From assembly GCF_900302505.1 (NCBI RefSeq), contig NZ_OMOJ01000005.1:124001-188000 (forward strand): a DNA stretch of 64,000 bases, written 5' to 3'. Each line of letters starts with the position of its first letter. Positions within the stretch are counted from its first letter, which is position 1. Made by a program: the position numbers and the translations under genes. Below, one piece after another: positions 5,308-35,193 of the stretch. This DNA comes from Pseudoprimorskyibacter insulae (GTDB lineage: Bacteria; Pseudomonadota; Alphaproteobacteria; Rhodobacterales; Rhodobacteraceae). Below the pieces are notes generated by a model. The model was not told where the DNA came from and searched no databases. It worked only from the letters and a program-made list of their open reading frames with translations.

Positions 5308-6306
5308 ATGCAACAGGCGACCGACACGATCAGCAGCGACAAAGTTAGCGCTATCGTTGCCGATATCGGCGGCACGAACACTCGTGTTGCGCTGACTCGC
5401 GGCGGTGAGGTCTTGATCGACACGGTGCAGCGCTATCGCAATGCCGATCATTCCAGCATCTACGAGGTGCTGACCGACTACTTGTCTGACAAGGATGTCC
5501 GTCCTGATGCGGCCTGCGTTGACATGGCCGGGCCGGTGTTCAATGGGGTTGGCACGCTGACCAACCTCAACTGGCAAGTCTGCCGCGATGAGATCGCCGC
5601 CTGCACGGGCGCCCATACGGTCGCGGTGCTGAACGACTTGCAGGCGCAGGGCCATTCCTTGGCGCATGTGCCCGCCGAAAACCTGCACACGGTGCGCACC
5701 GGCAACGCTTCCGGCGATCATGCCGCGCGTCTGGTGCTGAATGTCGGCACAGGGCTGAACGCGGCACTGGTGTATCGGATAGACGGGCAAACCCTTGTTC
5801 CTCCGTCGGAATCCGGTCACGTCACCCTGCCCGTCCATACGGATGCCGACCTGCGCCTGATGCGTTATCTGGCGGGTGATCATGGCATGGCGGGTTGCGA
5901 AGAGGCGATCTCGGGGCGTGGGATCGGCAAGATTTACGATTGGCTACATGTGGAAGATGGCCTGCCTGCCCCGCAGGCGGAAATCCCGACGATTGTTGAG
6001 GCCGCCACCGCTGGCACCGATGCCCTAGCCGTGGCCACCATGCAGACTTTCATCCGCATCATGGCGCATTGGGCGAGCGATCTGGCGCTGATTCAACTTC
6101 CCTTCGGCGGGATTTATTTCGTCGGCGGCGTCGCGCGCCACATCACGCCCTTCCTTGATCCGATGGGGTTTGAGCAGCACTTCCTCGACAAGGGCCGTTT
6201 TTCGGCCTTCCTGGCGCAATTCCCCGTGCATGTGGTCGATGATGACTATGCCCCGCTGCGCGGATCGGCCAGCCACCTAATGGACTTGCTTGCGCAACGC
6301 GGATAA
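5308..6306 (+). CDS. glk: Glucokinase
   Basis: ATP-dependent phosphorylation of glucose to glucose-6-phosphate. The 332-residue protein carries the ROK/Glk phosphate loop DIGGTNTR at residues 19-26 and further Glk signatures (LNDLQAQG, NVGTGLNAA, PSESGHVTLP). The ribosome site AAAGGG overlaps the stop of the glucosidase gene, indicating translational coupling. It supplies G6P to Zwf and Pgi, which are also encoded in this window. Confidence 0.93.
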   Translation: MQQATDTISSDKVSAIVADIGGTNTRVALTRGGEVLIDTVQRYRNADHSSIYEVLTDYLSDKDVRPDAACVDMAGPVFNGVGTLTNLNWQVCRDEIAACTGAHTVAVLNDLQAQGHSLAHVPAENLHTVRTGNASGDHAARLVLNVGTGLNAALVYRIDGQTLVPPSESGHVTLPVHTDADLRLMRYLAGDHGMAGCEEAISGRGIGKIYDWLHVEDGLPAPQAEIPTIVEAATAGTDALAVATMQTFIRIMAHWASDLALIQLPFGGIYFVGGVARHITPFLDPMGFEQHFLDKGRFSAFLAQFPVHVVDDDYAPLRGSASHLMDLLAQRG

Positions 6307-29123: not shown

Positions 29124-29177
29124 CCAAGCCTTGGGGAATCGACCGCTATAACACCTCCCATATGCCCGGAGGTGCCA

Positions 29178-30584
29178 ATGCAAATCGATCCAAACCTGAC
29201 TGCCCCGAAACAAGAAAACGAAGTTGGCCTTCTCAACGCCGCCGCGTCTGAGATGAGCAAGGAAGTCGTTGATGTTGGCGGGTTTCTTGATTCGCTGAAG
29301 TCAGAATGCGACGAACAGATCATCGCGCTTGAGGCGGTCAAATTCGGCGCGCAGTCAATCAACGAATCCAACAGCGCCGTTTTGGCCAATGTCGAAGAGG
29401 TCGCGCGCACGGCCGAAGAAACTCTCAAAAGCGTGAATGCCTCGGTCGGGTTCATATCTGAGACTTCGGAACATTCGGTGGAATTGGCGGGCTGGGTTCG
29501 CGCGATCCATGAAAAAAGTTCTGAGATTGAGGAAATGCTCAGCGAGGTGCGCAAATCCAACGATCAGATCGCTTCGATCGCGGCGCAGGTCAACGTCTTG
29601 GCGATGAACGCCAAGATTGAGGCTGCGCGCGCCGGTGTGGCAGGCAAAGGCTTTGCCATCGTCGCCGAAGCGATCAACGATCTGTCGCAGAAAACCACCA
29701 ACGCGGCAGAAGATATTTCAAGTTCTATCCAAAACATGGCCAATTGGATGAGCCAGCTTCAGCAAGGGGCCGAAATTTCGGCGCAACGTGCGACAGCCCT
29801 GCTGGAACGCAGCGCCGAAAGTGACCGGGCGCTGATGTCGATCGAAAACCAAGTTGCCGAAACCCATACCGCCACACAGGAAATCAACCGCCGCGTCGCC
29901 GATGCCGACCAGACAATCGAACGTTTCGCGCCCTCGATCCTTGAAATTGAAACATCGGTCAGCGAAATCACCGAAGGCGTCAAAACCGCATCTGACCGTT
30001 TGCAGAACCTCATCGACCGCTCCGAAACTGTTGTCCAAATTAGTGTTGGTTTTGGGGGCGGCAATGCCGATGACAATCGCATGATCACTTACGTGCAAGA
30101 CCTGGCCGGGCGCATTTCGCAAGCGTTCACGGCGGCCGTTGAGTCGGGCAAAATCCACATGGATGACCTGTTCGACACCCATTATGAACCGCTGCTCAAC
30201 ACCGACCCGCGCCAAGTGGTTACGAAATTCACCCGCTTTGCCGACCGCATCTTGCCCACCTATCAAGAAGAGGCGCTGACCTTTGACAAACGCGTGGTGT
30301 TTTGCGCCGCGATTGACAGGAACGGCTATCTGCCCACCCACAACCTGAAATTCTCAAAGCCGCAGTCGGTTGATCCGATTTGGAATGCCGCCAACTGCCG
30401 GAACCGCCGGATCTTCGACGACCGTGTTGGTCTAAAGGCCGGGCGTAGCGAACGTCCTTTCCTATTGCAGGTGTACCGCCGCGATATGGGGGCCGGAAAA
30501 TTCTCAATCATGAAAGACCTGTCGGCCCCGATTCACGTCAAAGACCGTCACTGGGGCGGGCTTCGACTGGCCTACGCCTTCTAA
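29178..30584 (+). CDS. Soluble methyl-accepting chemotaxis protein
   Basis: A 468-residue cytoplasmic chemoreceptor without membrane segments. The signalling hairpin tip is at residues about 136-172 (QVNVLAMNAKIEAARAGVAG), the CheA/CheW-binding consensus. Long coiled coils flank it to about residue 285. The C-terminal ~150 residues (from DDLFDTHYEPLL) form a separate sensor-like domain ending GGLRLAYAF, with histidine and cysteine residues (PTHNLKF, NCRNRRIF) that could bind a ligand or cofactor; similar C-termini occur in other alphaproteobacterial receptors. ATG at 29178 has GGAGG at good spacing; a GTG two codons earlier is less suited. No che genes are nearby. Confidence 0.85.
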   Translation: MQIDPNLTAPKQENEVGLLNAAASEMSKEVVDVGGFLDSLKSECDEQIIALEAVKFGAQSINESNSAVLANVEEVARTAEETLKSVNASVGFISETSEHSVELAGWVRAIHEKSSEIEEMLSEVRKSNDQIASIAAQVNVLAMNAKIEAARAGVAGKGFAIVAEAINDLSQKTTNAAEDISSSIQNMANWMSQLQQGAEISAQRATALLERSAESDRALMSIENQVAETHTATQEINRRVADADQTIERFAPSILEIETSVSEITEGVKTASDRLQNLIDRSETVVQISVGFGGGNADDNRMITYVQDLAGRISQAFTAAVESGKIHMDDLFDTHYEPLLNTDPRQVVTKFTRFADRILPTYQEEALTFDKRVVFCAAIDRNGYLPTHNLKFSKPQSVDPIWNAANCRNRRIFDDRVGLKAGRSERPFLLQVYRRDMGAGKFSIMKDLSAPIHVKDRHWGGLRLAYAF

Positions 30585-30615
30585 AGAAAAAGCCGCCGCT
30601 CATATGAGCGGCGGC
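30585..30615 (-). terminator. Long palindromic terminator between mcp and the small SOS-type gene
   Basis: A perfect 24-bp palindrome at 30592-30615 (arm GCCGCCGCTCAT) directly after the chemoreceptor stop. T-rich sequence follows only on the minus strand (TTTTTCTTT), so it should stop minus-strand transcripts coming from 30878; it may also protect the chemoreceptor mRNA end. Confidence 0.75.
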
Positions 30616-30698
30616 AAGTGGCGCGTTTGATAGGTGCAAGGCTGGCCATCTGGTTGGGGACAAGATCGCCGGGGACAGAACAGGCAGTGTTCTTGATG

Positions 30699-30727
30699 GG
30701 ATGTGCCAGTTGGGACAGGGCACATCC
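30699..30727 (-). other. Perfect 9-bp inverted repeat in the 3' region of the small gene
   Basis: GGATGTGCC (30699-30707) pairs with GGCACATCC (30719-30727) around an 11-nt loop. It lies between the stop of the 40-residue gene (30756) and the terminator at 30615, so a transcript of that gene would carry a structured 3' region of about 140 nt. It could be a stabiliser, a protein site or a 3'-derived small RNA. Confidence 0.45.
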
Positions 30728-30755
30728 GGCCTTAGAAAAACGCGCAGGCAGGTCG

Positions 30756-30878
30756 TCAGAAGAATGCGGGCATGTGCAGGGACACGACAAAAATCACTCC
30801 AAGCGCAATGGCACCAACGGCATCTTGTACCAGCGTGTCACTACAACGGGCGGCGGTTTTTGCAATGTCTCGGATCAT
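30756..30878 (-). CDS. 40-residue single-pass membrane peptide, candidate SOS-induced
   Basis: A small frame in the recG-mcp gap. The peptide starts MIRDIAKTAARCSDTL (basic, possibly amphipathic) and continues into one hydrophobic helix AVGAIALGVIFVVSL (about 20-35), ending HMPAFF, so N-in single-pass inner-membrane insertion is likely. ATG at 30878 has GAGG 8 nt upstream. The sequence GTTC-N7-GTTC, the alphaproteobacterial LexA box, lies 65 bp upstream on the same strand, and a strong terminator follows. The known parallel is SidA of Caulobacter, a LexA-controlled small membrane peptide that blocks division. I see no sequence identity to SidA; the similarity is in size, topology and control. 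Confidence 0.65.
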   Translation of the reverse strand: MIRDIAKTAARCSDTLVQDAVGAIALGVIFVVSLHMPAFF

Positions 30879-30942
30879 GGCGTTGCCTCACTGCTTAATG
30901 TTTTGTTACCCTTTTGTTCTCATGAGTCGCGACCAAAATCAA

Positions 30943-30957
30943 GAACTTTATGAGAAC
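30943..30957 (-). promoter_or_regulatory. LexA (SOS) box GTTCTCATAAAGTTC
   Basis: Read on the minus strand this is GTTC-N7-GTTC with exact spacing, the operator of LexA in Rhodobacter, Caulobacter and rhizobia. It sits 17 bp beyond the recG stop and 65 bp before the small membrane-peptide gene, inside an AT-rich stretch suited to a promoter. A third GTTC follows at 30964-30967 with 6-nt spacing. A 13-bp inverted repeat (CTTTTGTTCTCAT, mirrored by ATGAGAACAAAAG) also spans 30911-30962. Confidence 0.7.
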
Positions 30958-30973
30958 AAAAGAGAACAAAATA

Positions 30974-35193
<4,220 letters not shown>

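Follow-up and report, generated by a model that had tools for sequence, protein, structure and literature searches.

A gene for a tiny putative membrane protein, lying behind recG in Pseudoprimorskyibacter insulae and conserved through most of its family, probably helps these cells to arrest or protect themselves upon DNA damage. Our best explanation, to which we give about an even chance, is a one-gene SOS unit in which LexA would silence a SidA-like peptide that contacts the divisome, and the mRNA would end in a cloverleaf RNA. An earlier note on the window (the whole 64,000-nucleotide stretch of DNA analysed here) had proposed an unannotated 40-residue membrane peptide behind a LexA box as an SOS-induced small protein. 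That observation is correct, and larger than described. What stands of the SOS reading, on comparison of sequences, is a real conserved small membrane peptide with a LexA-type operator; induction by DNA damage belongs to the mechanism proposed in the Discussion.

Layout of the locus

The unit reads on the minus strand, to which the coordinates in this section refer unless marked otherwise. A LexA-type operator with three GTTC half-sites (30967-30964, 30957-30954 and 30946-30943, at spacings of 10 and 11 bp) was read from the sequence at 30943..30967 and is conserved in relatives. The exact GTTC-N7-GTTC box reported in the earlier note, GTTCTCATAAAGTTC, is present at 30957-30943, and a pattern scan found it to be the sole exact copy in the window. 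A second, reversed LexA-like box, GAAC-N7-TAAC with one mismatch, was read at 30905..30919; its GAGAAC begins 21 bp past the first box. The proposed 40-codon frame was found with both its ATG at 30878 (from the reading-frame list and the sequence) and a Shine-Dalgarno-like GAGG at 30886..30889. Including the stop codon it spans 30756..30878 and encodes the peptide MIRDIAKTAARCSDTLVQDAVGAIALGVIFVVSLHMPAFF, identified by ORF, profile, conservation and AlphaFold2 prediction. Three basic residues precede its one hydrophobic stretch, in agreement with the basic N-terminus and single hydrophobic segment claimed for it.

Covariance models R1 and R2 placed a cloverleaf 3' UTR RNA at 30619..30758, with a single-stranded CTGCCTGCG at 30751-30743 and a hairpin, P2, at 30727-30699 with loop CTGTCCCAACT. 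The strong terminator described earlier was recovered by a terminator scan as a hairpin of 10 pairs at 30592..30615, followed by TTTTTCTTTA and lying about 140 nt past the peptide stop codon. That scan returned 2 terminator-like sites against 0.9 in shuffles, the second being a 5-pair site at the end of recG (30995-30978). A search for sigma-70 promoter hexamers at the locus returned 0 sites. The conserved upstream neighbour is a recG-like gene (30974..33064). The names of this gene, ligA, ctrA and a chemoreceptor-like gene are putative ones, given on the strength of their translations. The chemoreceptor-like gene (29172-30584, plus strand) is convergent with the unit; among the 80 loci from named relatives, examined with up to 4 kb of flank, just 22 have a relative of this gene. 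Neither the array of several half-sites nor the cloverleaf RNA figured in the earlier account.

Conservation of the peptide across the family

The peptide was sought in 295 genomes of the same family, one per genus. Profile A1, made from 30 relatives with the window's own peptide included, matched 255 of the 295 at E ≤ 0.01, a limit at which about 3 false matches are expected. A tblastn search at E ≤ 1 gave 230 of 295; this is weak since its E value is per genome, and the profile was used instead. Profile, operator and reading of the recG locus together placed relatives of the peptide in at least 278 of the 295 genomes. Seven further genomes were read and had no peptide behind recG, and in the remaining ten the locus was unreadable.

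Three of the 40 profile-negative genomes (G023, G056 and G247) carry the composite operator described below and then a divergent peptide of 38-43 aa. The other 37 were searched for recG, and 36 matched at the limit, six of them weakly and partially, as a related helicase would give. Assignments were made by eye at the 28 recG loci that were read in these genomes. In twenty, a hydrophobic peptide of 36-45 aa follows DNA with a box or a near-box, and 18 of these twenty have an exact N7 box in one direction or the other; seven had neither box nor peptide, and in one the contig ends just past the boxes. To judge from these seven loci, some lineages lack the gene, carry it elsewhere or have it in a form too changed to recognise.

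Among the named relatives (Rhodobacteraceae and Roseobacter-group bacteria), recG ends directly upstream of the peptide gene in 79 of 80 loci, which bears out the location given in the earlier note. It is also upstream in 19 of 20 loci chosen by their operator. The exception (L261, genome G056) has the operator and the divergent peptide, with 1040 bases upstream that contain no recG, a possible relocation. Two family members (loci L306 and L307, genomes G033 and G171) have a RecG with identities of just 42% and 40%, yet they retain in the usual position a small hydrophobic ORF behind a box, with a very different sequence. One relative of the peptide lies on a 1.58-Mb replicon of Pseudorhodobacter turbinis filed as a plasmid (NZ_CP039965.1, 332590-332700). 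This record, which is without annotation, was the only match in the plasmid collection and is perhaps a chromid or a mis-filed chromosome.

The check proposed in the earlier note was a search for the peptide and its box in relatives, and both proved to be conserved. As judged from these genomes, the locus is a candidate for near-universal presence in one large group of marine and soil bacteria.

Distribution outside the family and known families

In a class-wide sample of 385 genomes, A1 scores below 1e-12 occurred in same-family genomes only. Weak matches were found in 31 outside genomes, the best (0.0017) within a 770-residue frame, and this profile search yielded no credible counterpart outside the family. 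Reading of 28 non-family recG loci, 27 of them readable, revealed neither the box nor a comparable boxed peptide behind recG; this set originally held 30 loci, and the 2 with boxes were two family members. Two unboxed hydrophobic ORFs lie far behind non-family recG (L316 and L339).

Neither the window peptide nor any of the 30 A1 members had a Pfam match over the cut-off, and NCBIfam had none for the window peptide. PHROGs returned nothing credible (best E 0.0042, for 2 of 30 members, to an unnamed family), and phages queried with one peptide, from L035, gave no match. The peptide has no Pfam match above cut-off to the SulA family (PF03846), and Pfam and NCBIfam profiles tied it by sequence to none of the known division inhibitors. 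SulA itself was over cut-off in 0 of 30 family genomes, with a positive E. coli control; the one sub-threshold match carried three stops. Thus, in these 30 genomes, SulA does not fill the role of division inhibitor.

Properties of the encoded peptide

Alignment of 110 ORFs, combining the set of 30 unnamed loci with the 80 named loci, was used to characterise the product. At least 8 of the named loci are also among the 30 (L069, L079, L097, L107, L117, L118, L132 and L140), so the 110 ORFs amount to about 102 independent ones. Starts were chosen with ATG preferred, and an ATG was available in all 110. Length was 40 or 42 codons in 99 of 110. Four residues (D19, G22, L34 and P37) are invariant over the 110 ORFs, while the third codon positions of these columns vary; T15 (108 of 110), R11 (102 of 110) and H35 (99 of 110) are nearly so. 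By such comparison, the ORF is one that encodes a protein.

Prediction points to a single-pass tiny membrane peptide. Each of the 110 ORFs includes a hydrophobic stretch (KD19 above 1.6 throughout, mean 2.19), and AlphaFold2 returned one helix over residues 2-39 (mean pLDDT 85, pTM 0.42). The N-terminal part carries 2.6 basic vs 1.6 acidic charges, and the N-helix is amphipathic (moment 0.39 vs 0.25 shuffled). About 3 residues remain past the membrane stretch. The 19-residue stretch itself is charge-free in only 56 of the 110 ORFs.

A multi-half-site LexA-type operator

The bare box was rejected as evidence when taken alone, since it occurs at chance frequency in both window and genome. One was found in the window against 1.68 expected from 100 shuffles, and the whole genome contains 147 GTTC-N7-GTTC sites vs 145 for the reversed pattern. 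The locus stands above chance because of conservation, not because of the box itself. An exact GTTC-N7-GTTC lies upstream in 30 of the 30 best same-family loci, the window's included, and in 78 of the 80 named loci; the two without it (L078 and L081) show one-base variants. In the same 30 genomes the motif is found upstream of lexA in 30 and of recA in 29, which identifies GTTC-N7-GTTC as the family's LexA box. It is also the motif reported for alphaproteobacterial LexA (PMC8565304), the Caulobacter motif being given as (T/A)TGTTC-N6-TGTTC (PMC13384398).

The operator is denser than those of recA and lexA. At least three half-sites (3 or 4) spaced by 10 or 11 bp were present at 28 of 30 peptide loci, vs 0 of 30 for recA and 6 of 30 for lexA, and the 30 recA promoters examined never exceeded two half-sites. 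Half-sites repeated every 10-11 bp suggest that LexA may bind cooperatively along one face of the DNA. Four GTTC half-sites in a row occur at 41 of the 80 named loci. Four lexA promoters (L203, L219, L220 and L226) show two overlapping GTTC-N7-GTTC boxes 11 bp apart.

The reversed second box, as GAAC-N7-CAAC, was found in 101 of 108 relatives, and the gap before GAGAAC is exactly 21 bp in 105 of 108; the remaining 2 of the 110 loci did not fit the operator pattern and were left out. The composite operator was detected in 188 of the 295 genomes, with one site per positive genome, and its reversed-pattern control gave 0 in all 295. Sites nearer the consensus are described as being held more tightly by LexA (PMC13384398), and a product that does harm needs a tight operator. 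An operator denser than those of recA and lexA is the logic expected for a tightly held harmful product. On this comparative evidence the peptide gene appears to be under SOS (LexA) control. The in-silico targets named in the main text of the D. shibae LexA paper do not include recG (PMC6473078).

A conserved cloverleaf RNA in the 3' UTR

Most loci carry CUGCCUGCG soon past the stop codon, and 89 of 110 have UGCCUGC in the first 120 nt. About 130 nt then fold as a cloverleaf, in which a long stem closes the structure and UGUCCC or UGCCU recurs in the loops of three hairpins. Of the 110 UTRs, 51 have UGUCC located in the loop of a hairpin, whereas shuffled sequences average 16. For 45 UTRs folded out of 72 non-redundant ones, the mean folding z was -1.88, and the loop motifs were unpaired with a probability of 0.71 vs 0.40 elsewhere and 0.46 in shuffles. 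Copies of CTGCCTGCG are concentrated behind the stop (84 copies, 3.8/kb vs 0.011/kb elsewhere).

Covariance model R1 was built from a hand-chosen seed of 8 sequences that did not include the window's RNA. It found 86 of the 100 sources given to it, equal to 78 of the 92 outside the seed. These sources excluded 10 of the 80 named loci, as well as L031, which is the window again. Within the alignment, 38 of 39 pairs change on both sides, with 763 compensatory cells vs 255 in shuffles. The covariation score was 0.543 vs 0.196 shuffled and 0.05-0.09 with slid partners, an effect size somewhat flattered by an alignment that was fitted to the structure. RNAalifold, run on a MAFFT alignment of 25 UTRs, returned no pairs, which we think is due to gaps misplacing stems. 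Compared across relatives in this way, the 3' UTR is a conserved structured RNA whose fold the covariation supports.

The window's RNA (30758-30619, minus strand) scored 47.2 bits (E 8.3e-9) with R2, which was built with it, and 22.1 bits (E 0.0015) with R1, which was built without it. Under strict filters, with 11 candidates scored per genome, R2 matched at least 120 of the 295 family genomes, one match each. The best 30 of these 120 all lie directly behind the peptide ORF. For the remainder, inspection by eye of the matches with listed coordinates showed two weaker ones (G204 and G222) lying away from the peptide or operator. At 47 loci with a divergent or missing peptide, 10 matched R2 below 0.01. 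Outside the family R2 matched 0 of 140 genomes, with 23 candidates scored per genome. One R2 match (E 0.0065) lies inside the recG of a non-family genome (L327), and a weak second match in the window (5860-5986, minus strand; 16.7 bits, E 0.034) is probably chance. Rfam gave no match over the gathering score for window positions 30500-31100; two matches to miRNA families were far below it, at E 0.13 and 0.2.

Sequestration of the Shine-Dalgarno sequence was considered as a function for local structure. Sequestration by the ORF is unsupported (unpaired 0.338 observed vs 0.356 resampled, p 0.21), and sequestration by the 3' UTR was tested with the same outcome.

Discussion

The predicted inner-membrane helix is most likely a SidA-like effector of a division or envelope checkpoint, made together with a structured RNA. 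In the proposed mechanism, LexA dimers would occupy the GTTC half-site array and the reversed second box and keep the promoter tightly silenced. DNA damage would lead to RecA-driven LexA cleavage and release a transcript of roughly 0.3 kb. The 40-aa peptide would then insert into the inner membrane as one continuous helix, N-terminus inside by the positive-inside rule and with almost no periplasmic tail. D19, G22, L34 and P37, with the nearly invariant T15, R11 and H35, may serve to bind a specific partner in the membrane, with the late divisome (FtsW/FtsI/FtsN) as the likeliest candidate, so that division would be delayed during DNA repair. Two things favour the late divisome: the class is already known to have SidA, a tiny membrane peptide under LexA control that does this work (PMC4211646), and SulA is lacking, with 0 of 30 genomes over cut-off. 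The cloverleaf, with its UGUCCC/UGCCU loops, may be a stability or processing element or a 3' UTR-derived regulatory RNA. As such it could protect or time the message or, once cut within the unpaired segment that follows the stop, act alone.

We can extend this into a bifunctional, family-wide SOS transcript that supplies a checkpoint peptide and a trans-acting cloverleaf RNA (an sRNA or a sponge for an RNA-binding protein), a proposal that we offer tentatively and consider rather doubtful. If true, such a transcript would join division and post-transcriptional control in one LexA-silenced gene.

The main rival to a divisome-contacting peptide, which we regard as unlikely, is an SOS-induced helix of the TisB/DinQ type. 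Such a helix would depolarise the inner membrane, reduce ATP and hold back growth, and its synthesis or decay would be adjusted by the structured end of the mRNA. TisB of E. coli is an SOS-regulated single transmembrane peptide with RNA-level control. DinQ, from the same species, is likewise a toxic, SOS-regulated single transmembrane peptide under RNA-level control and depolarises the membrane (PMC3567139). The size of the peptide, its single helix, the density of the LexA operator and the structured message all fit such a toxin, a role that the small helix would also suit. However, invariance of D19, G22 and P37 over 110 ORFs suggests a specific partner, and there was no sign that the ORF has been selected to sequester the Shine-Dalgarno sequence (p 0.21). 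DinQ and TisB are also paired with antisense RNAs, whereas the RNA here is a sense-strand cloverleaf 3' UTR, and the family peptide has no Pfam match above cut-off.

Residue-specific conservation of the helix would fit any membrane partner, and the peptide might modulate another inner-membrane protein, such as the CckA sensor kinase, the FtsH protease or an envelope or transport complex, instead of division. In R. capsulatus, LexA reportedly acts on the CtrA pathway by way of cckA (PMC6473078, citing Kuchinski 2016). However, the one conserved neighbour that tested positive is recG (79 of 80), and we consider such a partner improbable. That the RNA is the main product, an SOS-induced 3' UTR-derived sRNA or protein-binding RNA with the peptide secondary, is very unlikely. 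Strong covariation, exposed loop motifs (unpaired 0.71 vs 0.40) and the concentration of CTGCCTGCG behind the stop favour it, but the peptide is more widely recognisable, its profile matching 255 of 295 genomes while the RNA model matches at least 120. A chance ORF beside a chance box in intergenic DNA agrees with the frequency of the bare box but is next to inconceivable given the conservation of box, peptide, recG neighbourhood, operator and codon pattern, together with the covariation of the RNA.

Taken as a divisome-contacting checkpoint peptide, the product appears to work like the SOS small-membrane-peptide kind, its likeness to SidA being one of description. SidA of Caulobacter crescentus is also a LexA-controlled tiny inner-membrane peptide of an alphaproteobacterium; it has 29 aa and interacts with FtsW (PMC4211646). 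The peptides here differ in being mostly 40 or 42 aa and in having a structured 3' UTR. DidA of C. crescentus (PMC4211646) and YneA and SosA of Gram-positives (PMC13396833, PMC6851548) are small membrane proteins too, and they stop cells from dividing once DNA is damaged. These, again, are likened by description, and DidA is reported to be SOS-independent. For the RNA, Rhodobacter sphaeroides provides UTR-derived sRNAs and small coding RNAs such as Pos19, which are small-protein mRNAs and 3' UTR regulatory RNAs of the same wider group (PMC5036791, PMC8625941). Pos19, however, is described there as RpoE-dependent, not LexA-dependent, and the RNA here has no Rfam match.

In searches of open-licence PMC articles we found no description of the peptide gene or the cloverleaf RNA, and no SOS division inhibitor for the family (Ruegeria, Phaeobacter, Sulfitobacter and others). 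The locus is a near-universal candidate of the family that has an unusually elaborate LexA-type operator, and its message also contains a structured RNA unmatched in Rfam. It raises one question of checkpoint control and another of RNA function.
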